From the NCBI RefSeq assembly GCF_040807025.1, contig NC_090943.1, forward strand, positions 20,303,213 to 20,367,212: a stretch of 64,000 bases of DNA, read 5' to 3'. Source of the DNA: Struthio camelus. Taxonomy: Eukaryota; Chordata; Aves; Struthioniformes; Struthionidae. A program made the position numbers and the translations under genes. The notes beneath the pieces were generated by a model. The model was not told the origin of the DNA. It saw nothing but the letters and a program-made list of their open reading frames with translations, and did not search any database. Of this stretch, positions 1-60,100 are shown in pieces. Every line of letters begins with the position of its first letter. The stretch's first letter is position 1.

Positions 1-3000
1 CCACGGCCAACTTCTCCTTCCAAGCTCTGTGAAGCCCTCCGTCGGTTCCGCTTCCGGCCCCACCTCCGATTGCCATTAGCGTTAGGGTTAGGGTTAGGTT
101 AGGGTTAGGAGAAGGACAAAGCGTGGAGACAAAAATGGAGTGGGGTGGCCAAGGGCATGCAAAGCACATGCGGGGCTACAGCAAGCTTGCTCCCACGCCA
201 ACTTCTCCTTCCAGCTCTGTGAAGCCCTCCGTCGGTTCCGCTTCCGGCCCCACCTCCGATTGCCATTAGCGTTAGGGTTAGGGTTAGGGTTAGGGTTAGG
301 AGAAGGACAAAGCGTGGAGACAAAAATGGAGTGGGGTGGCCAAGGGCATGCCAAAGCACATGCGGGGCTACAGCAAGCTTGCTCCCACGCCAACTTCTCC
401 TTCCAGCTCTGTGAAGCCCTCCGTCGGTTCCGCTTCCGGCCCCACCTCCGATTGCCATTAGCGTTAGGGTTAGGGTTAGGGTTAGGGTTAGGAGAAGGAC
501 AAAGCGTGGAGACAAAAATGGAGTGGGGTGGCCAAGGGCATGCCAAAGCACATGCGGGGCTACAGCAAGCTTGCTCCCACGCCAACTTCTCCTTCCAGCT
601 CTGTGAAGCCCTCCGTCGGTTCCGCTTCCGGCCCCACCTCCGATTGCCATTAGCGTTAGGGTTAGGGTTAGGGTTAGGGTTAGGAGAAGGACAAAGCGTG
701 GAGACAAAAATGGAGTGGGGTGGCCAAGGGCATGCCAAAGCACATGCGGGGCTACAGCAAGCTTGCTCCCACGCCAACTTCTCCTTCCAGCTCTGTGAAG
801 CCCTCCGTCGGTTCCGCTTCCGGCCCCACCTCCGATTGCCATTAGCGTTAGGGTTAGGGTTAGGGTTAGGGTTAGGAGAAGGACAAAGCGTGGAGACAAA
901 AATGGAGTGGGGTGGCCAAGGGCATGCCAAAGCACATGCGGGGCTACAGCAAGCTTGCTCCCACGCCAACTTCTCCTTCCAGCTCTGTGAAGCCCTCCGT
1001 CGGTTCCGCTTCCGGCCCCACCTCCGATTGCCATTAGCGTTAGGGTTAGGGTTAGGGTTAGGGTAGGAAGGAAGACCGTGGAGACAAAATGGAGTGGGGT
1101 GGCCAAGGGCATGCCAAAGCACATGCGGGGCTACAGCAAGCTTGCTCCCACGCCAACTTCTCCTTCCACTCTGTGAAGCCCTCCGTCGGTTCCGCTTCCG
1201 GCCCCACCTCGATTGCCATTAGCGTTAGGTTAGGGTTAGGGTTAGGAGAAGGACAAAGCGTGGAGACAAAAATGGAGTGGGGTGGCCAAGGGCATGCCAA
1301 AGCACATGCGGGGCTACAGCAAGCTTGCTCCCACGCCAACTTCTCCTTCCAGCTCTGTGAAGCCCTCCGTCGGTTCCGCTTCCGGCCCACCTCCGATTGC
1401 CATTAGCGTTAGGGTTAGGGTTAGGGTTAGGAGAAGGACAAAGCGTGGAGACAAAATGGAGTGGGGTGGCCAAGGGCATGCCAAAGCACATGCGGGGCTA
1501 CAGCAAGCTTGCTCCCACGCCAACTTCTCCTTCCAGCTCTGTGAAGCCCTCCGTGGTGTTCCGCTTCCGGCCCACTCCGATTGCCATTAGCGTTAGGGTT
1601 AGGGTCTAGGGTAGAGAAGGACAAAGCGTGGAGACAAAAATGGAGTGGGGTGGCCAAGGGCATGCCAAAGCACATGCGGGGCTACAGCAAGCTTGCTCCC
1701 ACGCCAACTTCTCCTTCCAGCTCTGTGAAGCCCTCCGTCGGTTCCGCTTCCGGCCCCACCTCCGATTGCCATTAGCGTTAGGGTTAGGGTTAGGGTTAGG
1801 GTTAGGAGAAGGACAAAGCGTGGAGACAAAAATGGAGTGGGGTGGCCAAGGCATGCCAAAGCACATGCGGGGCTACAGCAAGCTTGCTCCCACGCCAACT
1901 TCTCCTTCCAGCTCTGTGAAGCCCTCCGGTCGGTTCCGCTTCCGGCCCCACCTCCGATTGCCATTAGCGTTAGGGTTAGGGTTAGGGTTAGGGTTAGGAG
2001 AAGGACAAAGCGTGGAGACAAAAATGGAGTGGGGTGGCCAAGGGCATGCCAAAGCACATGCGGGGCTACAGCAAGCTTGCTCCCACGCCAACTTCTCCTT
2101 CCCAGCTCTGTGAAGCCCTCCGTCGGTTCCGCTTCCGGCCCCACCTCCGATTGCCATTAGCGTTAGGGTTAGGGTTAGGGTTAGGGTTAGGAGAAGGACC
2201 AAAGCGTGGAGACAAAAATGGAGTGGGGTGGCCAAGGGCATGCCAAAGCACATGCGGGGCTACAGCAAGCTTGCTCCCACGCCAACTTCTCCTTCCAGCT
2301 CTGTGAAGCCCTCCGTCGGTTCCGCTTCCGGCCCCACCCTCCGATTGCCCATTAGCTGTTAGGGTTAGGGTTAGGGTTAGGGTTAGGAGAAGGACAAAGC
2401 TGTGGAGACAAAAATGGAGTGGGGTGGCCAAGGGCATGCCAAAGCACATGCGGGGCTACAGCAAGCTTGCTCCCACGCCAACTCTCCTTCCAGCTCTGTG
2501 AAGCCCTCCGTCGGTTCCGCTTCCGGCCCCACCTCCGATTGCCATTAGCGTTAGGGTTAGGGTTAGGGTTAGGAGAAGGACAAAGCGTGGAGACAAAAAT
2601 GGAGTGGGGGTGGCCAAGGGCATGCCAAAGCACATGCGGGGCTACAGCAAGCTTGCTCCCACGCCAACTTCTCCTTCCAGCTCTGTGAAGCCCTCCGTCG
2701 GTTCCGCTTCCGGCCCCCACCTCCGATTGCCATTAGCGTTAGGGTTAGGGTTAGGGTTAGGGTTAGGAGAAGGACAAAGCGTGGAGACAAAAATGGAGTG
2801 GGGTGGCCAAGGGCATGCCAAAGCACAGCGGGGCTACAGCAAGCTTGCTCCACGCCAACTTCTCCTTCCAGCTCTGTGAAGCCCTCCGTCGGTTTCCGCT
2901 TCCGGCCCCACCTCCGATTGCCATTAGCGTTAGGGTTAGGGTTAGGGTTAGGGTTAGGAGAAGGACAAAGCGTGGAGACAAAAATGGAGTGGGGGTGGCC

Positions 3001-3140
3001 AAGGGCATGCCAAAGCACATGCGGGGCTACAGCAAGCTTGCTCCCACGCCAATTCTCCTTCCAGCTCTGTGAAGCCCTCGGTCGGTTTCGCTTCCGGCCC
3101 CACCTCCGATTGCCATTAGGTTGTTAGGGTTAGGGTTAGG
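1..3140 (+). repeat. Indel-rich part of the satellite array
   Basis: The same units as the rest of the array, but with many one-base insertions or deletions, mostly in homopolymers. Examples are a lost G in the hexamer run near 98, CAAGCTCTG near 30, TCCGGTCGG near 1926, CCAGCTCTG with an extra C near 2101, and GTGGGGGTGG near 2604 and 2990. These break the reading frames that run unbroken through the cleaner units downstream. The pattern fits uncorrected long-read consensus near a contig end, though real decay is possible. Confidence 0.8.
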
Positions 3141-3284
3141 AGAAGGGAGAGGCGTGGGAGACAAAAATGGAGTGGGTGGCCAAGGGCATGCCAAAGCACA
3201 TGCGGGGCTACAGCAAGCTTGCTCCCCACGCCAACTTCTCCTTCCAGCTCTGTGAAGCCCTCCGTCGGTTCCGCTTCCGGCCCC

Positions 3285-6200
3285 ACATTAGATAGACATT
3301 AGCGTTAGGGTTAGGGTTAGGAGAAGGACAAAGCGTGGAGACAAAAATGGAGTGGGGTGGCCAAGGGCATGCCAAAGCACATGCGGGGCTACAGCAAGCT
3401 TGCTCCCACGCCAACTTCTCCTTCCAGCTCTGTGAAGCCCTCCGTCGGTTCCGCTTCCGGCCCCACCTCCGATTGCCATTAGGGTTAGGGTTAGGGTTAG
3501 GGTTAGGAGAAGGACAAAGCGTGGAGACAAAAATGGAGTGGGGTGGCCAAGGGCATGCCAAAGCACATGCGGGGCTACAGCAAGCTTGCTCCCACGCCAA
3601 CTTCTCCTTCCAGCTCTGTGAAGCCCTCCGTCGGTTCCGCTTCCGGCCCCACCTCCGATTGCCATTAGCGTTAGGGTTAGGGTTAGGGTTAGGGTTAGGA
3701 GAAGGACAAAGCGTGGAGACAAAAATGGAGTGGGGTGGCCAAGGGCATGCCAAAGCACATGCGGGGCTACAGCAAGCTTGCTCCCACGCCAACTTCTCCT
3801 TCCAGCTCTGTGAAGCCCTCCGTCGGTTCCGCTTCCGGCCCCACCTCCGATTGCCATTAGCGTTAGGGTTAGGGTTAGGGTTAGGGTTAGGAGAAGGACA
3901 AAGCGTGGAGACAAAAATGGAGTGGGGTGGCCAAGGGCATGCCAAAGCACATGCGGGGCTACAGCAAGCTTGCTCCCACGCCAACTTCTCCTTCCAGCTC
4001 TGTGAAGCCCTCCGTCGGTTCCGCTTCCGGCCCCACCTCCGATTGCCATTAGCGTTAGGGTTAGGGTTAGGGTTAGGGTTAGGAGAAGGACAAAGCGTGG
4101 AGACAAAAATGGAGTGGGGTGGCCAAGGGCATGCCAAAGCACATGCGGGGCTACAGCAAGCTTGCTCCCACGCCAACTTCTCCTTCCAGCTCTGTGAAGC
4201 CCTCCGTCGCTTCCGCTTCCGGCCCCACCTCCGATTGCCATTAGCGTTAGGGTTAGGGTTAGGGTTAGGAGAAGGACAAAGCGTGGAGACAAAAATGGAG
4301 TGGGGTGGCCAAGGGCATGCCAAAGCACATGCGGGGCTACAGCAAGCTTGCTCCCACGCCAACTTCTCCTTCCAGCTCTGTGAAGCCCTCCGTCGGTTCC
4401 GCTTCCGGCCCCACCTCCGATTGCCATTAGGGTTAGGGTTAGGGTTAGGGTTAGGAGAAGGACAAAGCGTGGAGACAAAAATGGAGTGGGGTGGCCAAGG
4501 GCATGCCAAAGCACATGCGGGGCTACAGCAAGCTTGCTCCCACGCCAACTTCTCCTTCCAGCTCTGTGAAGCCCTCCGTCGGTTCCGCTTCCGGCCCCAC
4601 CTCCGATTGCCATTAGCGTTAGGGTTAGGGTTAGGGTTAGGGTTAGGAGAAGGACAAAGCGTGGAGACAAAAATGGAGTGGGGTGGCCAAGGGCATGCCA
4701 AAGCACATGCGGGGCTACAGCAAGCTTGCTCCCACGCCAACTTCTCCTTCCAGCTCTGTGAAGCCCTCCGTCGGTTCCGCTTCCGGCCCCACCTCCGATT
4801 GCCATTAGCGTTAGGGTTAGGGTTAGGGTTAGGGTTAGGAGAAGGACAAAGCGTGGAGACAAAAATGGAGTGGGGTGGCCAAGGGCATGCCAAAGCACAT
4901 GCGGGGCTACAGCAAGCTTGCTCCCACGCCAACTTCTCCTTCCAGCTCTGTGAAGCCCTCCGTCGGTTCCGCTTCCGGCCCCACCTCCGATTGCCATTAG
5001 CGTTAGGGTTAGGGTTAGGGTTAGGGTTAGGAGAAGGACAAAGCGTGGAGACAAAAATGGAGTGGGGTGGCCAAGGGCATGCCAAAGCACATGCGGGGCT
5101 ACAGCAAGCTTGCTCCCACGCCAACTTCTCCTTCCAGCTCTGTGAAGCCCTCCGTCGGTTCCGCTTCCGGCCCCACCTCCGATTGCCATTAGCGTTAGGG
5201 TTAGGGTTAGGGTTAGGGTTAGGAGAAGGACAAAGCGTGGAGACAAAAATGGAGTGGGGTGGCCAAGGGCATGCCAAAGCACATGCGGGGCTACAGCAAG
5301 CTTGCTCCCACGCCAACTTCTCCTTCCAGCTCTGTGAAGCCCTCCGTCGGTTCCGCTTCCGGCCCCACCTCCGATTGCCATTAGCGTTAGGGTTAGGGTT
5401 AGGGTTAGGGTTAGGAGAAGGACAAAGCGTGGAGACAAAAATGGAGTGGGGTGGCCAAGGGCATGCCAAAGCACATGCGGGGCTACAGCAAGCTTGCTCC
5501 CACGCCAACTTCTCCTTCCAGCTCTGTGAAGCCCTCCGTCGGTTCCGCTTCCGGCCCCACCTCCGATTGCCATTAGCGTTAGGGTTAGGGTTAGGATTAG
5601 GAGAAGGACAAAGTGTGGAGACAAAAATGGAGTGGGGTGGCCAAGGGCATGCCAAAGCACATGCGGGGCTACAGCAAGCTTGCTCCCACGCCAACTTCTC
5701 CTTCCAGCTCTGTGAAGCCCTCCGTCGGTTCCGCTTCCGGCCCCACCTCCGATTGCCATTAGCGTTAGGGTTAGGGTTAGGGTTAGGGTTAGGAGAAGGA
5801 CAAAGCGTGGAGACAAAAATGGAGTGGGGTGGCCAAGGGCATGCCAAAGCACATGCGGGGCTACAGCAAGCTTGCTCCCACGCCAACTTCTCCTTCCAGC
5901 TCTGTGAAGCCCTCCGTCGGTTCCGCTTCCGGCCCCACCTCCGATTGCCATTAGCGTTAGGGTTAGGGTTAGGGTTAGGGTTAGGAGAAGGACAAAGCGT
6001 GGAGACAAAAATGGAGTGGGGTGGCCAAGGGCATGCCAAAGCACATGCGGGGCTACAGCAAGCTTGCTCCCACGCCAACTTCTCCTTCCAGCTCTGTGAA
6101 GCCCTCGGTCGGTTTCGCTTCCGGCCCCACCTCCGATTGCCATTAGGGTTAGGGTTAGGGTTAGGGTTAGGGTTAGGAGAAGGAGAGGGCGTGGAGACAA

Positions 6201-8230
6201 AAATGGAGTGGGGTGGCCAAGGGCATGCCAAAGCACATGCGGGGCTACAGCAAGCTTGCTCCCACGCCAACTTCTCCTTCCAGCTCTGTGAAGCCCTCCG
6301 TCGGTTCCGCTTCCGGCCCCACATTAGATAGACATTAGCGTTAGGGTTAGGGTTAGGAGAAGGACAAAGCGTGGAGACAAAAATGGAGTGGGGTGGCCAA
6401 GGGCATGCCAAAGCACATGCGGGGCTACAGCAAGCTTGCTCCCACGCCAACTTCTCCTTCCAGCTCTGTGAAGCCCTCCGTCGGTTCCGCTTCCGGCCCC
6501 ACCTCCGATTGCCATTAGCGTTAGGGTTAGGGTTAGGGTTAGGAGAAGGACAAAGCGTGGAGACAAAAATGGAGTGGGGTGGCCAAGGGCATGCCAAAGC
6601 ACATGCGGGGCTACAGCAAGCTTGCTCCCACGCCAACTTCTCCTTCCAGCTCTGTGAAGCCCTCCGTCGGTTCCGCTTCCGGCCCCACCTCCGATTGCCA
6701 TTAGCGTTAGGGTTAGGGTTAGGGTTAGGGTTAGGAGAAGGACAAAGCGTGGAGACAAAAATGGAGTGGGGTGGCCAAGGGCATGCCAAAGCACATGCGG
6801 GGCTACAGCAAGCTTGCTCCCACGCCAACTTCTCCTTCCAGCTCTGTGAAGCCCTCCGTCGGTTCCGCTTCCGGCCCCACCTCCGATTGCCATTAGCGTT
6901 AGGGTTAGGGTTAGGGTTAGGGTTAGGAGAAGGACAAAGCGTGGAGACAAAAATGGAGTGGGGTGGCCAAGGGCATGCCAAAGCACATGCGGGGCTACAG
7001 CAAGCTTGCTCCCACGCCAACTTCTCCTTCCAGCTCTGTGAAGCCCTCCGTCGGTTCCGCTTCCGGCCCCACCTCCGATTGCCATTAGCGTTAGGGTTAG
7101 GGTTAGGGTTAGGGTTAGGAGAAGGACAAAGCGTGGAGACAAAAATGGAGTGGGGTGGCCAAGGGCATGCCAAAGCACATGCGGGGCTACAGCAAGCTTG
7201 CTCCCACGCCAACTTCTCCTTCCACCTCTGTGAAGCCCTCCGTCGCTTCCGCTTCCGGCCCCACCTCCGATTGCCATTAGCGTTAGGGTTAGGGTTAGGG
7301 TTAGGAGAAGGACAAAGCGTGGAGACAAAAATGGAGTGGGGTGGCCAAGGGCATGCCAAAGCACATGCGGGGCTACAGCAAGCTTGCTCCCACGCCAACT
7401 TCTCCTTCCAGCTCTGTGAAGCCCTCGGTCGGTTCTGCTTCCGGCCCCACCTCCGATTGCCATTAGGGTTAGGGTTAGGGTTAGGGTTAGGAGAAGGACA
7501 AAGCGTGGAGACAAAAATGGAGTGGGGTGGCCAAGGGCATGCCAAAGCACATGCGGGGCTACAGCAAGCTTGCTCCCACGCCAACTTCTCCTTCCAGCTC
7601 TGTGAAGCCCTCCGTCGGTTCCGCTTCCGGCCCCACCTCCGATTGCCATTAGCGTTAGGGTTAGGGTTAGGGTTAGGGTTAGGAGAAGGACAAAGCGTGG
7701 AGACAAAAATGGAGTGGGGTGGCCAAGGGCATGCCAAAGCACATGCGGGGCTACAGCAAGCTTGCTCCCACGCCAACTTCTCCTTCCAGCTCTGTGAAGC
7801 CCTCCGTCGGTTCCGCTTCCGGCCCCACCTCCGATTGCCATTAGCGTTAGGGTTAGGGTTAGGGTTAGGGTTAGGAGAAGGACAAAGCGTGGAGACAAAA
7901 ATGGAGTGGGGTGGCCAAGGGCATGCCAAAGCACATGCGGGGCTACAGCAAGCTTGCTCCCACGCCAACTTCTCCTTCCAGCTCTGTGAAGCCCTCCGTC
8001 GGTTCCGCTTCCGGCCCCACCTCCGATTGCCATTAGCGTTAGGGTTAGGGTTAGGGTTAGGGTTAGGAGAAGGACAAAGCGTGGAGACAAAAATGGAGTG
8101 GGGTGGCCAAGGGCATGCCAAAGCACATGCGGGGCTACAGCAAGCTTGCTCCCACGCCAACTTCTCCTTCCAGCTCTGTGAAGCCCTCCGTCGCTTCCGC
8201 TTCCGGCCCCACCTCCGATTGCCATTAGCG
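3285..8230 (+). repeat. Partial higher-order repeat, period 3036 bp (16 units)
   Basis: Variant units recur at the same offset. The ACATTAGATAGACATTAG variant lies at 3285 and 6321. The GTCGCTTCC substitution lies at 4210 and 7246. The following unit lacking TTAGCG starts its hexamers after TTGC at 4421 and 7457. All three pairs are exactly 3036 bp apart. The GGAGAGGGCG variant just before the first marker also recurs (about 3146 and 6182). The match in hexamer counts fades after about 8200, so the duplication appears partial. Confidence 0.7.
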
Positions 8231-10512
8231 TTAGGGTTAGGGTTAGGGTTAGGAGAAGGACAAAGCGTGGAGACAAAAATGGAGTGGGGTGGCCAAGGGC
8301 ATGCCAAAGCACATGCGGGGCTACAGCAAGCTTGCTCCCACGCCAACTTCTCCTTCCACCTCTGTGAAGCCCTCCGTCGGTTCCGTTTCCGGACCCACGT
8401 CCGATTGCCATTAGCGTTAGGGTTAGGGTTAGGGTTAGGGTTAGGAGAAGGACAAAGCGTGGAGACAAAAATGGAGTGGGGTGGCCAAGGGCATGCCAAA
8501 GCACATGCGGGGCTACAGCAAGCTTGCTCCCACGCCAACTTCTCCTTCCAGCTCTGTGAAGCCCTCCGTCGGTTCTGCTTCCGGCCCCACCTCCGATTGC
8601 CATTAGCGTTAGGGTTAGGGTTAGGGTTAGGGTTAGGGTTAGGAGAAGGACAAAGCGTGGAGACAAAAATGGAGTGGGGTGGCCAAGGGCATGCCAAAGC
8701 ACATGCGGGGCTACAGCAAGCTTGCTCCCACGCCAACTTCTCCTTCCAGCTCTGTGAAGCCCTCCGTCGGTTCCGCTTCCGGCCCCACCTCCGATTGCCA
8801 TTAGCGTTAGGGTTAGGGTTAGGGTTAGGGTTAGGAGAAGGACAAAGCGTGGAGACAAAAATGGAGTGGGGTGGCCAAGGGCATGCCAAAGCACATGCGG
8901 GGCTACAGCAAGCTTGCTCCCACGCCAACTTCTCCTTCCAGCTCTGTGAAGCCCTCCGTCGGTTCCGCTTCCGGCCCCACCTCCGATTGCCATTAGCGTT
9001 AGGGTTAGGGTTAGGAGAAGGACAAAGCGTGGAGACAAAAATGGAGTGGGGTGGCCAAGGGCATGCCAAAGCACATGCGGGGCTACAGCAAGCTTGCTCC
9101 CACGCCAACTTCTCCTTCCAGCTCTGTGAAGCCCTCCGTCGGTTCCGCTTCCGGCCCCACCTCCGATTGCCATTAGCGTTAGGGTTAGGGTTAGGGTTAG
9201 GGTTAGGAGAAGGACAAAGCGTGGAGACAAAAATGGAGTGGGGTGGCCAAGGGCATGCCAAAGCACATGCGGGGCTACAGCAAGCTTGCTCCCACGCCAA
9301 CTTCTCCTTCCAGCTCTGTGAAGCCCTCCGTCGGTTCCGCTTCCGGCCCCACCTCCGATTGCCATTAGCGTTAGGGTTAGGGTTAGGGTTAGGGTTAGGA
9401 GAAGGACAAAGCGTGGAGACAAAAATGGAGTGGGGTGGCCAAGGGCATGCCAAAGCACATGCGGGGCTACAGCAAGCTTGCTCCCACGCCAACTTCTCCT
9501 TCCAGCTCTGTGAAGCCCTCCGTCGGTTCCGCTTCCGGCCCCACCTCCGATTGCCATTAGCGTTAGGGTTAGGGTTAGGGTTAGGGTTAGGAGAAGGACA
9601 AAGCGTGGAGACAAAAATGGAGTGGGGTGGCCAAGGGCATGCCAAAGCACATGCGGGGCTACAGCAAGCTTGCTCCCACGCCAACTTCTCCTTCCAGCTC
9701 TGTGAAGCCCTCCGTCGGTTCCGTTTCTGGCCCCACCTCCGATTGCCATTAGCGTTAGGGTTAGGGTTAGGAGAAGGACAAAGCGTGGAGACAAAAATGG
9801 AGTGGGGTGGCCAAGGGCATGCCAAAGCACATGCGGGGCTACAGCAAGCTTGCTCCCACGCCAACTTCTCCTTCCAGCTCTGTGAAGCCCTCCGTCGGTT
9901 CCGCTTCCGGCCCCACCTCCGATTGCCATTAGGGTTAGGGTTAGGGTTAGGAGAAGGACAAAGCGTGGAGACAAAAATGGAGTGGGGTGGCCAAGGGCAT
10001 GCCAAAGCACATGCGGGGCTACAGCAAGCTTGCTCCCACGCCAACTTCTCCTTCCAGCTCTGTGAAGCCCTCCGTCGGTTCCGCTTCCGGCCCCACCTCC
10101 AATTGCCATTAGGGTTAGGGTTAGGGTTAGGGTTAGGAGAAGGACAAAGCGTGGAGACAAAAATGGAGTGGGGTGGCCAAGGGCATGCCAAAGCACATGC
10201 GGGGCTACAGCAAGCTTGCTCCCACGCCAACTTCTCCTTCCAGCTCTGTGAAGCCCTCCGTCGGTTCCGCTTCCGGCCCCACCTCCGATTGCCATTAGCG
10301 TTAGGGTTAGGGTTAGGAGAAGGAGAGGGCGTGGAGACAAAAATGGAGTGGGGTGGCCAAGGGCATGCCAAAGCACATGCGGGGCTACAGCAAGCTTGCT
10401 CCCACGCCAACTTCTCCTTCCAGCTCTGTGAAGCCCTCCGTCGGTTCCGCTTCCAGCGCCACGTGGCTCTAAGATTAGCATTAGGGCTAGGGTTAGGGTT
10501 AGGAGAAGGACA

Positions 10513-11520
10513 AAGCATGGAGACAAAAATGGAGTGGGGTCGCCAAGGGCATGCCAAAGCAGATGCAGGGCTACAGCAAGCTTGCTCACATGGCTACTTT
10601 TTACTTTAAGTGTAGAGCAGGATTTTTTCATTTTACTTCAGGCTTTAACAGAGATTAGAGCAAGGTTTCAAGTTAGGGTTACGGTTAGGAGAGGGAAAAA
10701 ACCTGGAGACCAACATCGAGTGGGGTTGCCAACAGCCTGTGTAAGGAAATGTGCAGCTACAGCACAATTGTTCCCAGGCTACTTTTTGGTTTTGGCCACG
10801 AATGGGCTTGGTGGATTCTGGTTCAGGCCCCACCCGAGATTAGAGCTAGTGTGAAGCGCAGGGAGCTCTAATCTCACTTGGTGCCTAAAGCCAAACTCAC
10901 TAAGCCCACTACTTCTGTTAAGCAGAAAGTGACCCTGGGAGTAAGCTTGCTGTAGCTCTGCATGTCCTTTGGCATGCGCTCTACAGGGTCCCTCCATTTT
11001 GAGGTCCAAGTTTTCTCCTAACCCTAATCCTCATTCTAATCTCAGGTCAGACCTGAGGCCAAACCCATCAAGCCCATTGCACACCTTGAATGGAAGAGCT
11101 GTCCTGGGAGCAAACTGGTGGTATCCTTCTATGTCCCCTGGCATGCCCTGGCATCCCCACTCCGAGGGGCTTTGGCTTGGGTCTGCAGGCTTTATCCTTC
11201 TCCTAACCCTTATTTGATCCCTAATCCTAATCTCAGGTGAGGCCTGAACCTGATCCAGATTCTAACCCCACTTTCATTCACTGGCCGAGACTAGGGCTAG
11301 GTTTAGGATTGCGATTAGGGTTAGGTTTAGGCTAAGTTTGACGTCTGGGTCTTGAATGGGCTTGTTGTGTTGAAATTCAGCTCCCTGAGATTATGGCTAA
11401 TGTTAGGGTTACGGTTAGGATTAGGATAAAGCCTTGAGCCTCCTGTGGATCTGAAAAGGGCGTGTCAAAGTGCATATGCGTACAGCAAGTTTGCCCTCTG
11501 GGAACTCTGGCCTCTGTCGG
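10513..11520. repeat. Diverged, partly inverted fossil copies of the satellite unit
   Basis: Past the array edge the same motifs continue with heavy divergence. Plus-oriented copies are at 10513-10855 and 11280-11500, the latter with GTTAGGGTTACGGTTAGG-like hexamers and TACAGCAAGTTTGCCCTC. Minus-oriented copies are at about 10864-11250: AAGCTTGCTGTAGCTCTGCATG and TTTTCTCCTAACCC are reverse complements of unit motifs. Degenerate hexamers (CTAACCCTAATCC, GGTTTAGGATTGCG) mark both directions. No coding potential is claimed. Confidence 0.8.
10836..10875. repeat. Inverted-repeat hinge in fossil satellite
   Basis: GAGATTAGAGCT (10836-10847) and its exact reverse complement AGCTCTAATCTC (10864-10875) flank a 16-bp spacer. 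The similarity continues outward, imperfectly, for about 40 bp on each side (TGGGCTTGGTGG against the complement of the CTAAGCCCA region). It marks the point where satellite-like units switch orientation. Confidence 0.75.
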
Positions 11521-14500
11521 GGAAGGTTAAGGCTGTCCATTTTCAGTAATCACCAGTACAACCTTTTTGGCATCCAGTAAGATATCAGAGAATCCAACAC
11601 ATTACTTTGATCACAGATAAAGCACAATGTTATGAGAGCTTACAAAGCAGATATTTAAATCTTCACTATGCTTCCAAACTCTGATAATTTTCAAAAATAT
11701 GTACTTCTAGATTTCTGAAACTAAGGAACAGAGTGAAAGAGATTACCTTAATAGGTTGTGGAAGCAAACCTCCATGTTGCATAATGATCCTTTGTATCCC
11801 TCCCATTTAAAAATCTCCAATTCCTTTTCCATAGGCAATCCCAGTCATTTAGCGAAGGCAAACAACTTTGCCGTACAATTATTTCAGAGCAACATTTCAT
11901 CAAAACCAAAAATGATAAATCATTCAGAAAAATAAAATCACTTGCATAAACAAACACAGCCTCTATGTGCAGTTACACTTGCTTGCTCTAGGCACAAGTT
12001 TGTTATATATGGCAAGTGAAAACACTTGTGGTTACAGTTCCCCATTCCACAGTTTCTCATTTCAAACTTCTTTGTAACCATGCTTATTAAGCAGTAGTTA
12101 CATAAGGCATGATTCCAAACATTTATAATCAACCTCTTAAAAAAAAACAATAAACTGCATCTAATTAGCTCTTAACGTGCTTTGAACTTGCATAGTAATC
12201 TGCAGATCTTCCTTGAAATATTAGTACTATTATTTATCAGGAGTCAGCACAGCCATTTTTTCTCATAGTGTTACATGCAAAGGTTTGGTTATATTAACTT
12301 AAAGTGGTTGCTGTATAGCTGACACATCCTCAGGCAAAAGGACAAATTCCGGGTCTTTTATTTCCCTCTTTTCCTGGAGTTGGACTATACATCCATGAGA
12401 CATCCAGGAAGCAACACCAACAATAGTCGACGGTTTCCACTGGTAGTGTGCATCACAGCCTACTCATCATGGCATTTCTGGCGACCCTGAACCAGCTTGA
12501 CTAACTTATTTCACTTATTTAGCTGTGTATATTTCTACTTACAAACCATCCTTCAGGCTAAGCCCTCTCCACATTGCAATCATCAGTCCTTGAGAACTGA
12601 GAAATAATGTTTCTTTCCTTAGTCTTTTTGATTTTCTTGTTTTTCAGCATCCTCTGTTGGGCAAGCTTCTTGCTCTTCTCAGTGGAAACGTAGACATTTA
12701 TCCCCATCTACTCACTTAGTGCTACGTCAGCTTACTAAAAAGAAAATTCAGTGTGTAACTTAACTTGAAAAGTAATGGCAGTATTACAGTATACAGTAGT
12801 ACAAATCAGTATTACAAATCATTTACTTTCTGATCAACTTTTTACTTTATTATGTTTTTTTTTTGCACTACTATTTACATGTACTTGAGAAAGTCATTTA
12901 CATTTTTTCCTTAAAATTTGCAGTGCGTGGGAGATTTTCAGGCCCTCAAATTCTACTGGTAGTCAATGCTAGACACTATTAATTCATAAGGTGTGCCTCT
13001 ACAGTCCTTGCAACAAAAACCTACCAAAACTCATTGATAATTCTGAAACTGTTCTTTTGACTGATAATTGTATTCAGTGTGCAAAAAAATCATATTATGT
13101 TTTGCACAGCCACCTCTGAAAGGCAACATAAGTCTAACAGCATGTTTGGAAAAAGACCATCTGGTTAATGTCGAAGTAGTACCTGCTCACTCAGCAAAGG
13201 CTGTCATTAGGTCAGCAACGGAGGCAGCCACTACTCCATCCACTCGGCAGTGTTAAATAATAGAAACCCAAATGAGAGGGCTGGAGCCTTGGCTGGTGGG
13301 CTGCATGTGGGACAGAAGGCTTAGCAGGAGATGTACACAAGCTTTACAAAAGTTATTCTAAAGCTGTGAAAGTTTCTCTACCACAAGTCTATCAAGAAAA
13401 AGAAATTCAGTCTAATATAACCCTTTCCATGGTATATAAGACTTGAAAAAAGTCCGTAACTAACACTGGATTCTGGTTTTAGCACATAAATTTAAGATAA
13501 TGTTTTTCTTCCAAACCAAAATGCAACTAAAAGGCTAGCTAAAATGGAACTGGAAATGTTTATTTAGCTCAGGTCTGATCTCACAGAGCTCTGAAGTCAG
13601 CCAAAAAAAAAAAAAAAAAAGCATTTTAAGCAAGGTAAGATCAGGGCCTTAACCATGCAAAAAAAAAGTACAATATATATACACCTCCATGTTTTGTAAA
13701 ATCTAGTGAACGCAGTTGTGCACTTATACTGGTTTAGTAGGTTGTGCTATGTTCCCTTTATGCTTGCTCTTAAGGAAAAAGGATAACAGAGTAATTGATT
13801 TTAGCATGCAAAGACTACAAGAAAACTGAAAAGATATAAAGTCTGCAAAGAAGGAAGAGCAGCCTGTGGACTCTTTTATCAACCTAAATGACAAGCATTT
13901 GAAAATATATTGCTTGGTAATTTTAACACTAAGCTATGAAAAATCCTCCCTCTGTACTGCAAGAAATATTATTTATACTGTTTTTTTCCTGTGAGTATTG
14001 TTATCAGCACTTCCTTATCCCAAAAGTCACCACAAGCCCCAAATGCTGCATCACATTCAAAACCTAAAACATATAGGTTTTGGCATTGTGTGTACTCTTG
14101 ATTTCAATATTAAGGAACTGTGATTTAATCGTTTATTTTAGATTCCTATATTACAGCAAAATTGATTCAAAAATTACAGTTGACAGGTCTCTAGCAGTAT
14201 ACAATGCTGTTAATTAGTGTGGTGTTTCTTTGACCTGGAACAATCACACATTTCTGTGTACTCCATAAATTAGTGAATATTGACGTATTAATCATTAAGG
14301 TTAAAAAATTTTAGTCAAATTTCTGTTCATTACATTTTCTAAAAATGAAAATATAAAAAGCCCATATAACATTACAAAAGTTTATGAGAGCCTTTCATTT
14401 AGAGCCCTTCAAAAACGGCAGAAAATGATGTCTAGCAAAATTCTGTTAGCAATGCCATCTTGTGGTTATAAGCTGTATATAACAAGAACTCTTAAGTAAT

Positions 14501-20573: not shown

Positions 20574-22796
20574 TCAGAAAACTTTCATAAAATGATTTTG
20601 AATTAAGGCTTCTATGCGAGACATCAGCATACTCGTATCAGCAGCACAGATCTGATGATCCTCATTCTCATTCTTTTTCAGTGTCTCTAATAGGCCCCAG
20701 TGGACTGGAGGCAGAGGGCTGTAAGAATTCAGCAAGTGAAGCTGACTTAACGGACTCTGTTTTATTTCTGCAATCCTCAAAGCCTTCAAGATAGCAGGTG
20801 CAAACTTAGAATAATGAGCTGTAGATGAAATAATAATTGGGCAAGTTCTGTCTTGTAATCGATCTGCAACCACTTTAGCAACAGCTGTGTGTGTATCCAA
20901 AATATACCCTGTAGTACTGTATACAGAGTGGATGGCAGCTAGACAGTCCTCCTCAGAGCACCACCCAGCCACCAAGTCCTGTTGCAGCTTTTCAAGTAGA
21001 TCTTTCTGTAGCTGGAAGTGGCCCTGATTTTCCAGTTGATTATATAATTGTGTCACCAGTTGTCCATCGCCATTAGCAATCAGGTGCAAATATCGCTCAA
21101 GATTGGAGGACTTCAAAATATCTACTGCTGGTGATAAAGTGGGAATTAATCTTCTTCCCCTCAAATCATAAATACCTGTTCTTATGAAGTCAGTCAAAAC
21201 ATTGTTTTCATTGGAAGCACAAATACATTTTCTAATAGGAATTCCCATCATTTTAGCATACAATGCAGCTAATATGTTGCCAAAGTTTCCTGTAGGAATG
21301 CAGACATCTACAGGGCTTCCAAAAGCAATAATATCTTGATGAACAAGATCAAGGTATGCAGAGGCATGATAAACTACCTGAGGAATCAGTCGTGCCCAGT
21401 TTATTGAGTTTGCTGCAGCTAAAGCTGTTCCATATTCTACAGTAAGAAAGCCAGTATAATCAGAATTAGTAAAGATTTGTTTTATTGCTGTCTGGCAAAA
21501 GTCAAAATCAGATTTGACACCTACTGACCAGGCATTTTCTTTCTGATAGCCAATCATCTGTGATTTTTGAATTTGGCTTACTCCATCCTCAGGAAAAAAA
21601 CTCATCACAGCAATTCTCTGTTTGTCAGTGTCATGAAGACGACTGAAGCCATCTAAGACAGCACTCCCTGTGTCACCAGAAGTAGCTACCAGAACCAAAT
21701 AATTGCAGCTTCTGGGAACACAGTATGCAAATATATGTGGCATCATCTGTAAAGCAAAATCCTTAAATGAAGCTGTAGGTCCATGAAATAACTCCAGGAG
21801 AAACTGATTGCCTGTCAGATGTCTAACTGGGGCAATTTTAGAACAGGTAAAGTTTTCTCCATAAGCAGTGCCAATAATTTCTCCCAGAGTAGAAGCAGGT
21901 ATATCAGCAGGATGTATGCACCTTTCCAGTATTACCTGGGCTCTTTCAGCATAGGTTGCTTCTATCAGGCTTTGCCATTCTCCAGCAGTGAATTTTGGAA
22001 GTCCGCTCCCAGGAACAAAAAGTCCTCCGTCAGGGGCTAAGCCTTCAGTGACAACATCACTGAAATATTTAGCAGAGTCTTTTTGCTTACAATTTCCAGA
22101 ACCACTAGACCTAGTTGAAATAAAAGTTTCCAATTCTGAGTTTTGATATCTCTTCACTGCATCAAGTACCTTTTCTGCTATAGCCTCTGCTGTAATCTCT
22201 CCTCCATAAAGAACACGGATATCATGCCACCTTTGGTAAAATTGCTTCCTAAACTGAAGTATGTCCTTAAGAGACATACCAGAACCGTGGCCCACAATGC
22301 GATCTACTTTCATTAATTTCAGCCTGCGCATAATGACTGCTGTGGGTACATCCAGATACACAACTATTCCATTTTTCTTCACATGCTGCATGCCAGCAGC
22401 ATGCATTGGATTGGACCCAGTAAGGGAAATTACACTTCCAGATGCTGAAATCTTCAACAGCGCTTTTCCTTCCTCCTCTAAAAATTGCTCATTACCAACA
22501 TCCTGCAGCTTTTCTGACACACTCATATTCCAGGTTGTTTCAAGGACATCATCATCTACATCTATGACAGGGCAATCTAGTTTCTGACCTACTATTCTCC
22601 CTACTGTTGTTTTCCCAGCACCTGGAGGTCCCATTAGAATAATATTCTTGTTTCCAATGAGAGAATGGCTTGAGAACCATGACTTCCCTATCTGTGCAAA
22701 AGCTACAGGTCTTGAAAACATTAGTTTTAAATACATGCTAGAAAGAGTGTTTTGGGTTATTAGTCCTAAAGGCCGATACTGAACAACGTGAAACAT
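20574..22796 (-). CDS. THNSL1: Threonine synthase-like 1
   Basis: A 740-residue single-exon coding region, close to the human protein (743 residues), which also has one coding exon. Residues ~48-220 form a shikimate-kinase-like domain with the Walker A loop GPPGAGKTT (56-64). Residues ~225-740 are a PLP fold-type II threonine-synthase-like domain. It has SFKD with the expected PLP lysine (K345), ATSGDTGSAV (371-380) and PTGNFGN (501-507). Vertebrates lack the threonine pathway, so neither plant- nor bacterial-type activity should be assumed; the cellular role is unsettled. The start is the first ATG, at 22796. An in-frame GTG at 22835 opens the frame further but is not a plausible vertebrate start. 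The basic N-terminus, with few acidic residues, could be a mitochondrial leader (inference). It is divergent with ENKUR, which shares its promoter island. Confidence 0.96.
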   Translation of the reverse strand: MFHVVQYRPLGLITQNTLSSMYLKLMFSRPVAFAQIGKSWFSSHSLIGNKNIILMGPPGAGKTTVGRIVGQKLDCPVIDVDDDVLETTWNMSVSEKLQDVGNEQFLEEEGKALLKISASGSVISLTGSNPMHAAGMQHVKKNGIVVYLDVPTAVIMRRLKLMKVDRIVGHGSGMSLKDILQFRKQFYQRWHDIRVLYGGEITAEAIAEKVLDAVKRYQNSELETFISTRSSGSGNCKQKDSAKYFSDVVTEGLAPDGGLFVPGSGLPKFTAGEWQSLIEATYAERAQVILERCIHPADIPASTLGEIIGTAYGENFTCSKIAPVRHLTGNQFLLELFHGPTASFKDFALQMMPHIFAYCVPRSCNYLVLVATSGDTGSAVLDGFSRLHDTDKQRIAVMSFFPEDGVSQIQKSQMIGYQKENAWSVGVKSDFDFCQTAIKQIFTNSDYTGFLTVEYGTALAAANSINWARLIPQVVYHASAYLDLVHQDIIAFGSPVDVCIPTGNFGNILAALYAKMMGIPIRKCICASNENNVLTDFIRTGIYDLRGRRLIPTLSPAVDILKSSNLERYLHLIANGDGQLVTQLYNQLENQGHFQLQKDLLEKLQQDLVAGWCSEEDCLAAIHSVYSTTGYILDTHTAVAKVVADRLQDRTCPIIISSTAHYSKFAPAILKALRIAEIKQSPLSQLHLLNSYSPLPPVHWGLLETLKKNENEDHQICAADTSMLMSRIEALIQNHFMKVF

Positions 22797-22839
22797 CTTC
22801 CTCTGCTGTTTTTTCAAGTCAACTTGACAATCCACTCAA
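22797..22839 (-). other. THNSL1: THNSL1 5' UTR part of the coding exon, with 3' splice site
   Basis: On the minus strand a T-rich tract and GAAACAG precede TTGAGTGG, 43 nt before the ATG at 22796. This is a good acceptor (AG at 22841-22840). It implies at least one upstream non-coding exon, as in mammals. Confidence 0.6.
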
Positions 22840-24420: not shown

Positions 24421-26501
24421 GGAACTGCATTATCTTCCAAAGACCTGCTCATGAATTATCCATGTTTACGATCATCACAGCAGTCCTTTAAGACCCTACT
24501 GCTCCCCAGAGTACATAGCAGCAAATGACTCCAGGGACAAAGGTCACTCAAGCTTCAAAAATAACATGGAGGCTCACATTTACATTTGTAAGAGGCTGCC
24601 ATGAAAATAAAGACTTTTCAGTTCCAGTTCCGTATGCTCCTTGCTCTAGATCCTACTCTATGTTCCTAGATGTCTTTTATACTCCACATTCATTATCAGA
24701 CTATTAGTATACGCTGCAAAGCCAAAGAGCTTTTGATTTTTTAAATCTTTCCGTTCACTCATTTCTACATGGAGAGACGTTTTTGCAAAGGGTAAGCCCC
24801 TTAAATTGAATTCTATTTCATGTTGATTGTCAGTTACACCCAATACTGTGATTTAATGCAGACACTACAATTACAAGGCATAGATCAAACTACAACAGGC
24901 ATACCGTAGTTTCTTCCAGTTCTGGTAGTGTATAAGCGAATGCTCATGTTTAGAAGCAATATAATGGTTACTTAAAAAACAAAATCTGTGAAAAGCAGTT
25001 ATAATATTCAGTATCATTATAAAGCTGTACTGTATGACAACGTACTGTAGGGAACACATACACAGAGTATAGAGTCAGTAAAAGGTATTTTATTAACCTG
25101 ATAGATGTGAGTTTATGCTCAGGGTTCAAAACATTTAGGGATAGTATTTTAGTTATTTTATTTCTTGATCAGATGCATCACTTGGTACCTTACATATGAT
25201 GTAAGGGAGCCCATACCACACTCAGCTTTGTGGCCTACATGTCTAACTGTACTACAGATTCACTTTGAGGAGCAAGAACTAAGTATGTGCTGTAGAGCTA
25301 CATGATTTAACATCTAGATTGCTTTATGGACCTAGGCTATAGGGACTTACCCCTAAAAGGGAAAGGGACTGATGAAAGGGATTAGACTTTGATTTATCTA
25401 GTTATAGGTTTACCATGCATACATAAAGTTGCAACTGGTCTATGGTATTTTCTGATATCAAATGAGCTGGTCTGGTGCAAAAATTTGCAGGAAACTTCTT
25501 TATCCAGCTACTCAGTTGGTTTAACCTATGTCAGTGTAGTCCAGTTTTGCACCCATGTAAAGTACATATGCATACAAGCTTGCAGCAGTCAAACGCAACT
25601 GCTTTTGAAATTAGATTTTTATTCAGTTGGCAAAACTTTACTCTAAAAAAAGACTTGAACTAGACTTTATCCACAGTAGAGCATGCCAGTCTAGTTATAC
25701 CAACAATCCAACCTAGTTTAGATAGAGCTAATTCTGTCAAAATGTTTTTTTTTTTCTTGAAGCAGAGCTTACATTCCTACCTCCAGTGGAGTAATAAGCT
25801 TTGACAACACATCTTTACCCTCCACTTGGACTCTCAACAGCAGCATCATTAGAAAATATCCCTATTTTTAATAACCATCACTGATGCCAAGAGTTCTAGC
25901 AAACAGTGGCTTTAGTTCCTGGTGACTTGAGACAAATTCCAAATATGAAGTTTACATATGCATACTGTATGGTTAAAATTCAGTAACCAAGCAAGTCAGC
26001 AGCAGTTCACAGCTCTCAAAGACCTCAGATACAAGATGGGCAGTTGCCATACATCACCTGTGCCTTTTTGTCAAGCAGAAGTTGTGCCCTGTGTCTTTTC
26101 TCACAGCTTTTATGCAGAGAAAAAAAATCTCAAAGTAACCATTCAACTTCGACCACTCCATGATCATCCCACAGATCAAGTTTCTGAAAAGGTGTTGAAA
26201 AATCACCCATGTTTTGAGGAAATGGGTCTCCTCATCCCCTCAAAAAGCACTGCTGCATAACAGGTCTAGAAGTTTGGCTGCAACAGCAGAGAAGTGAGCA
26301 CAGCAGTCACAACCCGTGAAGGGGGGAGGAATTACTTACAAACTGTATTAGCAGATCTTAACTGCCACAGACCCCTGTGGGAGTCAGACACCGCGCAGAG
26401 TTTTCCCAAAAGACCTTTAGGTGTTGAAATAGTTTTAGGAGTCTTGCGCACTGCCAGGAAAGTGTCAAGCTCATTTCCGGGCACTGCTACGTCTGTAAAG
26501 C

Positions 26502-26570
26502 AAAAAAAAAAAAAAAAAAAAGAAGAAGAAGAAGAAAGAAAAAAGGAAAAAAGAAAGAAAGAAAGAAAAG
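26502..26570. repeat. A20 run followed by GAA/GAAA microsatellite
   Basis: A20 at 26502-26521, then GAAGAAGAAGAAG and GAAAGAAAGAAAG. It directly borders the CpG island and may be the tail of an old retrocopy or simple slippage. Confidence 0.9.
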
Positions 26571-26910: not shown

Positions 26911-26912
26911 AC
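26911..26912 (-). other. Candidate alternative THNSL1 5' UTR splice donor
   Basis: The minus strand reads CCGG|GTATGTGAG, a good donor. It could end an alternative non-coding exon (last base 26913). Confidence 0.35.
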
Positions 26913-26992
26913 CCGGCGGGGCAGGGCCAGGTGCCTCAGCCAGGTAACGGGCGAGCCCCACTCGCCCGCAGCCTCCCCTTCCCACCCCCCCT

Positions 26993-27257: not shown

Positions 27258-27259
27258 CG

Positions 27260-55600: not shown

Positions 55601-57139
55601 AAGTTAGAGAGAGCAGCTTTTGCTCATAACTAGCATATTATTTTCCTGTTAGAGTTTATTCTTCTCTGGTACATGCATAGAAGGGAGATTTCACTGTAGT
55701 TCTGTGTACGTATGGAGAAGCAAATGGATTCCCATGTTACAATAGGAAGGAACAAAAAATTGATAGAGGAAAAAGGTGACCATGAAAGACAGAGCATAAA
55801 TTGTAGGATCATTTAATAAATTACGTCCTACCAAAATGTCCATCCTCATTGGAAGCACTGACTCATTCAGAGAGCTACCAAAGAACTTTCCAGAAATATG
55901 TTCACCACAAATAGTCCCCTAAGCTATTTTCCCCTGAAACATCAGATGGCATTTTTCAGTTTTCTGTTGAAACTTGCTTTACGTCCGATGTACATAAGTC
56001 ATATTTGGTGTATGCCAGAAATGGAAGATTGACTCAAAAAAAAAAAAAAAAAAAAAAGGACTGATGACTGAACGTGGCATTTTAAAAGTTCAGTTTTCCA
56101 GAAATGCCATCTACCTTATTCTGTAGAAATCAAAGTCACTTAAGATGATCACTCTTGTTTATTTTTTTGTCTTGAAGATTTCTCTGCTATTGTATCAGAG
56201 AGGTGATTCTTCTGATTTCAATCTGTCATGTTGTTTTTGCGATGCACAGCCGTCAAAGAGAGAAAGATTTAGGAACCCTTCCATTCCAGATTAATCAGAG
56301 CATAACCTTGAGGATTGCCATGTGTGTGACCTTGAACAAGTCACTTAAGCTCATTCCACTCTATTTTTTTTCAGTGTGAAATAGTGATAGCGTACATTTT
56401 TCAAAAAATGTTGATTGATGATATATTTCTTTATAGTATTTGTTTATATATTTGTTAAAATTGTAGGGGTACCATTTTCCAAAGCCAGTCAATGTGAAAA
56501 ATGTATAGTGTTTCTCTTTACCTTTCACTTAACTTATTGTTTTTAGAGAGTTACTAACATAACAAATTCTGTGATTGTACAGAAATATTTTGTATTCGTG
56601 TCTGCTGCGAGGAGAAACTGAAGGCTCAATTTCTTCAAGCATCTCCAACATCTCTGAAATACTTACGGATTCAGTATATGCTGAGAAGTGTTACTCCTTT
56701 TTTCTGTAACTGGGGAATTAATGCATTAAAGGTTAACCAGTTTGATTCATATGCTTTGCACCTTGCATCCTACATTCTGTATCTGCCTATTGTGAGCTTG
56801 ATCCAAAACACATTCAAGTCAAATCAAGAAACCTGAGCAAACTGTAGGTCAAGCTAGATACTCATTCTGATGTTTCTTTGTAACCACAGGGAAAGCATAC
56901 CATGAACTTAGAGAAACTGCATCTAATGTTATTTTATCCTTAATTTTCACTTCAGGACAGAACGATTGGCCAAAGATATTATGCAAGACATTGGAGACAA
57001 TGATATTGTGGTTCTCTGTGTACTCAAAGGTGGCTACAAGTTCTGTGCTGACCTTGTGGAGCACATTAAAAATCTCAGCAGAAATTCAGAAAGGTTCATC
57101 TCCATGAAAGTCGATTTTGTTAGAGTGAAAAGTTACCAC
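49542..57139 (+). CDS. PRTFDC1: Phosphoribosyltransferase domain-containing 1, 5' part (exons 1-3)
   Basis: Joined exons 49542-49601, 53825-53931 and 56956-57139 encode the first 117 residues; the human protein has about 225. After an N-terminus rich in glycine and alanine ending GRGVV come [34 protein letters not shown], then [18 protein letters not shown] with the LKGG phosphate-binding loop, and [11 protein letters not shown]. The [12 protein letters not shown] stretch fits PRTFDC1 better than its paralogue HPRT1. HPRT-family enzymes join hypoxanthine or guanine to PRPP; human PRTFDC1 is reported to have only weak activity. Exon lengths 107 and 184 equal HPRT1 exons 2 and 3. The PRPP-binding motif and C-terminus lie beyond the window, so activity cannot be judged. 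Promoter: a CpG island. Confidence 0.93.
49728..49785 (+). repeat. (CCCGG)n followed by (CGCGG)n
   Basis: About six CCCGG copies (49728-49760), then five CGCGG copies (49761-49785), within the CpG island in PRTFDC1 intron 1. Confidence 0.93.
52352..52379. repeat. Perfect 11-bp inverted repeat (hairpin)
   Basis: TGCCTAGACTG (52352-52362) and CAGTCTAGGCA (52369-52379) with a 6-nt loop, GCATGA. Arms are short for a microRNA precursor, and no longer flanking pairing was seen. Confidence 0.8.
53825..53931 (+). CDS. PRTFDC1: PRTFDC1 exon 2
   Basis: Acceptor GGTATTCAG|ATTTCAG and donor GACAG|GTATGT, 107 nt, phase 0 to 2. Encodes [13 protein letters not shown] to LIPHGIIVD plus part of the Arg codon. 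Confidence 0.95.
53932..56955 (+). other. PRTFDC1 intron 2
   Basis: 3.0 kb. It contains half of a 27-bp near-identical dispersed pair (54388-54414 and 55235-55261), an A22 run (56036-56057) and a MIR-like SINE relic. Confidence 0.8.
56310..56400 (+). mobile_element. MIR-like SINE relic
   Basis: TGTGTGACCTTGAACAAGTCACTTAAGCTC, followed after ~30 bp by GTGTGAAATAGTGATAG, matches the conserved core region of MIR/CORE-SINEs (GTGACCTTGGGCAAGTCACTTAA...). The element is ancient and truncated; edges are approximate. Confidence 0.65.
56956..57139 (+). CDS. PRTFDC1: PRTFDC1 exon 3
   Basis: Acceptor TCACTTCAG|GACAG and donor TACCAC|GTAAGT, 184 nt, ending in phase 0. Encodes [31 protein letters not shown] and [12 protein letters not shown]. 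Confidence 0.95.
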
Positions 57140-60100
57140 GTAAGTCAACAACTTATTTATGTAGACTCTGGTTGTATTCTCATAAGAAATAGTAGACTTC
57201 TGTAGTGAGAAATTAAAAAAAAACTTTTAGATTATAAGACAATCAGTGTGATTTTTTTTTTAAATTGATGAGTTTTTTTTTTCAAAATATTCCTGTCCCT
57301 TTATACTTTTTGGATAACATGAGTAATGATATGAGGCATTCTCAAGCTGTATTTTTTTTCATTTAACCCGTCTTCACTTTTGGACAGAAAATTAGTCAGA
57401 TTTCCATCATGTAAAATGTCTACATGTTGTTTGTTCTCACAATCCTCCGCAGTCCTGTCAAGTTTATTTCACAGGATTTCATATTCCACCTCCCTTCATA
57501 CTTAAGTTTAGCATAACTGCAAGATGATAAATCTGTGTCTTATTCTACATGTTTAATGCTAAATTAAATGTTTTATTCTTCATAACATGCAGTTTATGTA
57601 AGAGCAGAGTATACCACTAGATGATGATAGTGCTTTATAATAAAATGAAATAAGTCATTGAACCAAATCCAGTGCTGAGATAAAAGTCAAAACTTTCTGT
57701 TATCTTCAGAGGAAATTACGCCGTAGTGATTCATTTGTTTCAGTGAGGCAGTGATAATGAGAAGAGCTGCTTCTTTTTAGAAAGATTGGTTACAATTTCT
57801 GTTTGCACAAGCTATATTTTTATTTTCGACCATTTATGCTGCACTATATAGTGAGGGAGCATTTCTAGAAGTAAGTTGTCCTAGAAATGTCTAAGGAAGT
57901 ACACCAAATATATGTAGTGATAATAAGCTTTCTCTTTGACCACTAATGCTATGTAGTGATAATAAGCTTTCTCTTTGACCACTAATGCAACTTGCTGAGT
58001 CTGATGGCTCCCATGATAACTCCACCTCCTTTCCATGGAAAGAGGTTGGTGGGTTGGCATTTTACTCCAAAGCCAGTGACCATAACCTTTTCCTGACTTT
58101 CACGAATCCAGCCTATATTTTTTCCATCATGGAAGAGAACTGAATGAGAGTCTTTTGTAGCCGTTTCAGCAGGATTTGATCCTGGGACTACTCTTTTGAG
58201 AACTGATCTGCTCTATGAAGGACATATGCAGTACAGAGATTGCACTGTTTCTAGCTATTTAGCGTTATTACAAGAGAACTAATTAATAAAGTAAAATACG
58301 TATTTGTCTTAACATACGAATGTGTGGAAATTATACTTGATTTTTTTTTTGGTGTGGTAACACTAGCACTTCTATTTTTTAGCAATGCTTTTGCTAACGG
58401 TAGGACTATTTAAATTGATTTTTCCTTTGCACCTGGCATTATAGGTAATGCACATGCTTTTCCTATTGGGTTGTCTTGTATCTAGTATGAGGATACCCCA
58501 ATTGTGTAAAATTATTTTCCTTGGTGACCAGCCAAATCTTATTAGCAGTATTACCTCTTAACCATTGAGTTGCAGGAGATGTATACCACAGCAGCGTGGA
58601 AATCTCCCCATCATTTTTTAGGAAATGAAGTATAAGTATACTATATAAAGCTGAAACTGCAGTGGAAATTTTGTTATGCTGGAGTTAATTACAAAAGCCT
58701 AGATGATCCTACTGTTTAATGGCTGCGGATGTTCTGTATCTTAGCGTCATGCTTCAGTAGGAAGGTAAGTGATTCCCCAGAACTAGGGGATTCTAGAACT
58801 AGAAGAAATTAGCTTGCAACTAGTTTTTAAAAAATAAATTCTCTTTTTTTGTGTGTGCTTCCAAACAGGTGTCATGTATTTAGAGACTAGAGCTGTGCTT
58901 TAGTTAGTGCTGAATATGAAACCTTCAACAATGCTTGATTTCTGGCTGGTCTTGAGAAGCTGGGTAACACTTCAGTATAAATTTAAAATAACATTAATAT
59001 TAATGGATTCGTTCAGTGAGTGAGAGGTAAAAATAATGCCAACTAAAGTACCAATATCACTCTCTGCCATCCTTTGGGTTCTGGGTTATCATTTTGTTGT
59101 ATTCTGTCCAACTGGAGGCAAGGATAGGTTCTCTAAAATTGGAAATCATGGCCATGTGCGACATAGCTGTGCTTAGAACGCTTAAGTGAGTAAGGAGCTT
59201 TTATTAGTTTGAGTGGCCACATATCCCAGCCTTATATGAGACTCCGAAGTTACCCGTGTCAGTTTATTCTGTAAAATTTTCCCTTCACAGTGCTTTTAAA
59301 CTTTAATCACAGGCAAATAATTACCTTCTGAGATGTAAGGCTCTACCTGAAGTCTTGGAGCACTTCCCTCTCTTTGCTTTTGCTGTTCCACTTTCTATTA
59401 GGACTTATTATTCTCTACTCATTTTTCTCTCTTTTTATCCCTCTCACATTTTACAGACACTGTTCTTCTCACATAATTTCTCCTGCTTCCTTTTACTAAC
59501 TGTTCTCTCCTTCTCTCCTAAAGGGAGTCCTGCTGCTCTCAATACATTTCCTTCAGATATGTCTCCCCTTTCCCCCAGGCTGTCTAAATCCAGCAAGTAA
59601 CTTCAGCTCAAACTGGTGGGATTTTTGAATTGGCTCATTTCAACTTCAGTACCAAAGGTTAGTCGATGTTTTGAGGTTGTAACTGAAAGGGGGAGTTCTT
59701 GATTTAATTGTGTTGCAAAAATGAGCTCTGATCAAACTCTGAACTTGGCATCAGTGAAAGTACATCTTAAGTGTGACGTATCCGCAAAAAATGTCGTATT
59801 TTGATGTCTGGCAAACAGAGACGATTGCCTTTCAAATAAAAAGAGATTGCAAATTAGTCCAGCTTTACAGCACTCTCTGTTTTTCAAACCTGTCATATCC
59901 CAGAATTTAGACAGTTGTTGAAATAAAATCTTAAGTTCTGCTTTCATATTAAGTAGCTGAAAGTTGGACATATACATTCTTTTTTAGACTTTGGGCTCTA
60001 GAAGTTGAACTATGTTTTCCATTTCTTTAGGGTTTTTTTCTAGAATGATAATATAATACAGAAGAGAAAGAGTTAAGAAAAGTATACAAGTGGACAGAAA

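Follow-up and report, generated by a model that had tools for sequence, protein, structure and literature searches.

A satellite of Struthio camelus whose units each carry a telomeric hexamer block, with related units on several chromosomes

The genome assembly of Struthio camelus (GCF_040807025.1) comprises 1.45 Gb in 262 contigs, which are designated C1, C2, C3 and so on. The window analysed here is the 64,000-nucleotide stretch C2:20303213-20367212 (contig NC_090943.1), and it opens with the right-hand end of a satellite array in which every unit bears telomeric hexamers. Tandem Repeats Finder places a head-to-tail tandem array at window positions 1-10587, with a period of 192, 56.0 copies and 95% matches. 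When the unit borders are set by cutting at a HindIII-bearing motif, 56 units on the plus strand result, and the last of these ends at 10584 (1..10584). Each unit is divided into two parts: a body of 158 bp and a single, in-register block of telomeric hexamers, which together give a consensus of 192 bp. The commonest block is TTAGCG-(TTAGGG)4-TTAGG, an example of which lies at 842..876 on the plus strand. The consensus is matched exactly by 24 of the 56 units and AAGCTT, the HindIII site, occurs exactly once in each of them (56/56). A TTAGGG cluster is likewise present inside all 56 monomers, with two exact copies in 10 units, three in 8, four in 36 and five in 2. In addition, TTAGGGTTAGGG has 140 matches in the window against the 0.03 expected from shuffles, and all 140 are on the plus strand and inside the array, between 82 and 10312. 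The original prediction of about 55 units, with a body of about 160 bp and two to five TTAGGG copies at a fixed position, thus agrees closely with what is found. The end of the array, which had been put at 10512, is instead at 10584 and is followed by diverged copies in both orientations up to 11493.

The 37 units between 3403 and 10398 are 192 bp (22 units), 186 bp (9), 180 bp (5) or 198 bp (1) long, so that they change in steps of 6 only. This change by whole hexamers, which the original prediction had also proposed, points to slippage or exchange within the block. In all 36 window units that were split into body and block, blocks of 22-40 bp are set apart by 158-bp bodies. The locus was therefore rightly described as a composite satellite and a plain interstitial telomere tract, that is, extended and uninterrupted (TTAGGG)n, can be rejected. 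The final unit (10399..10584, plus strand) is a diverged edge unit with 17 substitutions from the consensus. Elsewhere, units 17-18 (3041..3402, plus strand) resemble units 33-34 (6067..6438, plus strand). Unit 18 equals unit 34 except for one inserted C and both have six substitutions in common relative to the consensus, while units 17 and 33 have three substitutions in common. The near-identity of the one pair and the shared substitutions of the other indicate that a two-unit stretch was copied. Periods of 5 and 16 units, seen by eye, failed a permutation test and only the 17-18/33-34 copy is retained. Long open frames are present within the array; these can arise mechanically from a unit length divisible by 3 and the array is apparently non-coding.

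A run of 200 N lies directly before window base 1 and, because of this scaffold gap, base 1 is not a natural end of the array. The gap-side part of the array (1..3402, plus strand) differs from the remainder by its indels, which were counted per unit: 12 of its 18 units have indels in the body, versus 1 of the 37 later units (Fisher p = 4.8e-7), the sole such unit beyond 3.4 kb being the diverged edge unit. To the left of the gap, indels are found in 3 of 50 units examined, and two of these are the final two before the gap. The single-base indels of the first 3.4 kb are best read, from their position in the sequence, as consensus or assembly errors adjoining the gap.

On C2, the full array spans 20,114,374 to 20,313,796, or approximately 199 kb, and the units left of the window have the same orientation as those within it. 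Here, 20 kb at the right end, 40 kb at the left end and, between them, five samples of 2 kb were read, and the remainder follows from these and from a list of exact matches. No satellite unit was present in any of nine 2-kb samples taken between 15.3 and 20.1 Mb of C2. The array thus occupies 20.1-20.3 Mb of a chromosome of 173.66 Mb, and not a chromosome end. A 26-mer from the C2 body occurs 1259 times forward and 423 times in reverse genome-wide, and 100 among the matches listed are all on C2. Units of the C2 type are also found on the unplaced contigs C44, C54 and C118, and a private variant of the window units has nine matches in the genome: three in the window, two on C108 and four on C142. 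The latter two contigs may be absent parts of the C2 array or the other haplotype. The trimer (TTAGGG)3, with 46,088 forward and 84,886 reverse matches genome-wide, mixes true telomeres with the satellite and is unusable as a satellite count.

In 20 other contigs, the opening 1 kb has no match to the satellite body: 2 of these contigs begin in telomere, 2 in N and 16 in other DNA. Contig starts carry repeats of other kinds. A 17-bp tandem repeat (AAAGAGAGGGAAAGAGC or a rotation of the same period) is found close to the telomere tracts at the starts of C3 (C3:8330-9967) and C4 (C4:4670-5230), and degenerate CCCTAA/CCCTGA-like DNA follows the leading N runs at the starts of two chromosomes, from C1:7501 and C2:2501 onward. 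The first 1 kb of each of the short contigs C50, C110 and C140 is approximately 90% G+C and consists of tandem repeats, with an 80-81-bp unit common to C110 and C140.

Beyond the array, nhmmer identifies four clear relics and two weaker ones at window positions 10646-11493, in both orientations and 65-76% identical. These include a copy with degenerate hexamers (10646..10765, plus strand, E=4.3e-18), two inverted copies (10943..11110, E=3e-16, and 11112..11256, E=2.1e-13, both on the minus strand), a weak and largely hexamer-like relic (11238..11333, plus strand, E=4.6e-5) and a further copy on the plus strand (11388..11493, E=7.1e-10). Motifs of the bird CR1 element and similar gave no convincing match. 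A relative of the flank relics is present 11 times at C10:23,246,532-23,735,048 with a spacing of about 48.8 kb, and a segment of that length on C10 appears to be tandemly repeated.

Related units exist on other chromosomes as well. Of 88 candidates, the search for them scored 40, which makes the relatives given here a minimum. The largest relative is an array on C1, on the minus strand, of 0.55-0.60 Mb. Its first exact 28-mer is at 132,202,381, all seven samples taken between 132.300 and 132.751 Mb contain units, and none is present at 132.800 Mb. The C1-type 28-mer has 0 forward and 2028 reverse matches genome-wide, a strand bias that fits one C1 array in one orientation, and the 100 matches listed all fall on C1. 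Tandem copies that have diverged occur at C3:33.53 Mb and C18:1.75 Mb. When the hexamer block is excluded, body identity to C2 is 64% for C1, 65-71% for three C3 units and 71% for C18, and each score exceeds those of all 300 shuffles. The alignments of C1, one C3 unit and C18 span 148-159 columns, which is nearly the whole body. Furthermore, the hexamer block is at the same body junction in C1, C2, C3 and C18. Two short tandem units at C1:59.85 Mb also have hexamer blocks, joined to another body; their membership of the family is doubtful, as only C18 among six body comparisons beats all shuffles, and the comparison with C2 fails. Since body and block occur together in the relics beside the array, in the diverged C3 and C18 units and in the C1 array, the composite unit is, on these alignments, old and multi-locus and would have formed well before the C2 array. 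Common descent of the unit across chromosomes is the probable relationship.

The copies also differ in age. Bodies differ by substitutions from their local consensus at a mean of 0.40% in window units (36 of 38 split), 0.32% to the left of the gap (49/50), 2.7% at the left end of the C2 array (191/214) and 8.1% in C1 (25/111). The mismatch of interior hexamers to TTAGGG, counted in bases, is 0.5% in the window, 2.3% at the C2 left end, 4.9% in C1, 14.8% in C3, 9.5% in C18 (3 of 3 anchored units, 7 hexamers) and 19% in the plus-strand flank relics (2 of 2, 7 hexamers). A block is present in 38/38 anchored units of the window, 213/215 at the C2 left end, 118/121 in C1 and 5/6 in C3. As the hexamer count accepts up to two mismatches, old blocks seem better preserved than they really are. 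Hexamers and body thus decay at comparable rates. This argues against strong selection on the hexamers, and no sign of selection on the telomere part is seen.

The genes around the C2 array provide its context. An open frame of 753 amino acids lies 10 kb to the right of the array (20577..22835, minus strand) and matches the shikimate-kinase and threonine-synthase N-terminal domains, a domain make-up from which we take it to be THNSL1. Further to the right is an open frame with a phosphoribosyltransferase exon by domain match (56927..57202, plus strand), presumably of a PRTFDC1-like gene. About 0.53 Mb to the left of the array, a Pyridoxal_deC gene is represented by five exon-like stretches (C2:19,564,501-19,586,606). 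Two of these five were compared with solved structures and the best match was glutamate decarboxylase 2 (GAD2; 2okk, E = 2.9e-17 and 2.5e-31), ahead of GAD1. A closer left marker, GPR158, was uninformative: none of the 18 matches in a search for the 7tm_3 family is near the array, and the domain is perhaps split over exons. GAD2 and THNSL1, which flank the array, also neighbour each other on human 10p12, with matching relative orientation, and the array is therefore most likely contained in an old syntenic interval. Two stretches of the window, 26000-28000 (G+C 0.59) and 48000-50000 (0.57), stand out from surroundings of about 0.36 and resemble promoter CpG islands; the second contains a (CCGGC)n run at 49727-49786.

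Telomere hexamers in mid-chromosome, with inverted relics adjoining the array, could suggest that two chromosomes fused here long ago and left a scar, or that an inversion carried a telomere inside. The gene order disfavours such a scar at the C2 site: synteny appears to be retained here, as GAD2 and THNSL1 bracket the array within about 0.8 Mb and follow the human 10p12 order. Moreover, all blocks of the window array are in one orientation with no head-to-head telomere tract, and related units are present on C1, C3 and C18. This explanation is therefore very unlikely. The same facts leave unsupported, at the C2 locus, the earlier idea that a terminal sequence was captured together with its telomere end, since the unit of body and block already exists on C1, C3 and C18 and as relics, and GAD2 and THNSL1 flank the array. 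An artefact of assembly is extremely unlikely. Although the window starts at a gap, its first 3.4 kb probably contain errors and unplaced contigs have a private variant in common with it, the same units at 0.3-0.4% divergence are found on both sides of the gap, diverged units lead into other DNA at both outer edges of the array, and C1 carries an array of its own.

A centromeric or pericentromeric satellite of C2 (and, for its own array, of C1), perhaps at a centromere that was repositioned and with the hexamers as passengers, is an unlikely reading of the sequence, if one with several features in its favour. These are the array sizes (199 kb and 0.55-0.60 Mb), the existence of chromosome-specific types and a unit length close to that of a nucleosome. 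Telomeric hexamers are also present in bird tandem arrays away from chromosome ends in chicken, where CNM arrays hold (TTAGGG)n at the centromere cores of seven chromosomes (PMC9974502); the CNM unit there is 41 bp, whereas here one block is present per unit of about 192 bp and the arrays are, by few markers, in chromosome arms. Against this reading, the C2 array is at 11.7% of its chromosome and the CENP-B box is unmatched in the array, though birds need none. A match to the GAPDH family falls at C1:90.96 Mb, which is 41 Mb away from the array on that chromosome. We take chicken GAPDH to be near the centromere of chromosome 1, and the C1 array, at 132 Mb, would then probably lie away from the ancestral centromere. 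A different role would have selection preserve the hexamers as binding sites of telomere proteins, such as TRF1/TRF2, that anchor or silence the locus. In its support, the window array contains 196 sites of YTAGGGTTR, presumably a telomere-protein site, versus 4 in the remaining window, and the block is retained in nearly all anchored units of the window, the C2 left end and C1. The hexamers decay about as fast as the body, though, and the relic blocks are degenerate, making this role highly improbable.

The explanation that we consider likely is an interstitial array of an old, dispersed satellite family, built of a 158-bp body and a hexamer block, that was amplified separately on C1 and C2 by unequal exchange and slippage. 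The composite unit would have formed once, long ago, and then reached several chromosomes. Later amplification on C1 and C2 would have occurred by unequal exchange or break-induced copying, with one or several units each time, and the block would have gained or lost whole hexamers through replication slippage or internal exchange. The telomeric tract would then be an inherited component, and stalled replication forks, if they form at such tracts, may ease amplification. Most likely, the satellite is without a dedicated function. Several points weigh against this account. The comparison is confined to one species, of the three C3 units, two align to C2 over just 107 columns, and the body figure for C1 derives from the 25 units of 111 that were split. 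The C1 hexamers are better kept than the body (4.9% vs 8.1%), which could reflect weak maintenance or slippage alone. Finally, a regular higher-order period is unsupported for units 19-55 (lags 1-23, permutation p(max) = 0.62), the values for lag 14 (p=0.049) and lag 21 (p=0.005), each taken singly, being uncorrected.

Satellite monomers with TTAGGG inside them are a known kind. Liangouzov et al. (2002, Russ J Genet 38:1359) reportedly described chaffinch satellite monomers with short TTAGGG clusters, similarly a bird satellite with the clusters within the monomer; the present tandem array, with a cluster in each of 56 units, belongs to the same class and its novelty is reduced accordingly. 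The likeness is one of description, and the present case differs in its two chromosome-specific arrays, its relics elsewhere and its flanking genes. In open-licence PMC literature, searched by title and the start of the abstract, no description was found of the 192-bp unit, its family, the two arrays of different age or the GAD2-THNSL1 location. The large interstitial TTAGGG accumulations termed Het-ITR (PMC7348932) are similar in kind, but blocks of few hexamers, each parted by a 158-bp body, distinguish the present array from them and that class is rejected. Interstitial telomeric repeats with flanking telomerase-RNA copies (TERC-ITS; PMC8537989) are likewise short telomeric runs beside other sequence at internal sites. 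Here, a tandem satellite and not a single insertion is found, and Rfam gives no match up to E=5 in 8700-11600, where short fragments could escape, and none at gathering scores across the full window. An origin from telomerase RNA finds no support in these searches.

Interstitial TTAGGG signals are often read as evidence of ancient chromosome fusions, as stated in PMC7348932. The large interstitial TTAGGG site on C2 lies between old neighbour genes and is built of a hexamer-carrying unit that is present on several chromosomes, and it need not mark a fusion. More broadly, and only tentatively, the family of telomere-bearing units might be ancient, spread through bird genomes and blooming independently, with hexamers that promote re-amplification; part of the interstitial (TTAGGG)n detected by fluorescence in situ hybridization in ratites and other birds might then be such blooms and not fusion scars. 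Should birds have this family in common, part of the cytogenetic evidence for fusions would need re-reading. In Struthio camelus, arrays and relics of differing age allow the amplification and decay of a telomere-bearing unit to be followed.

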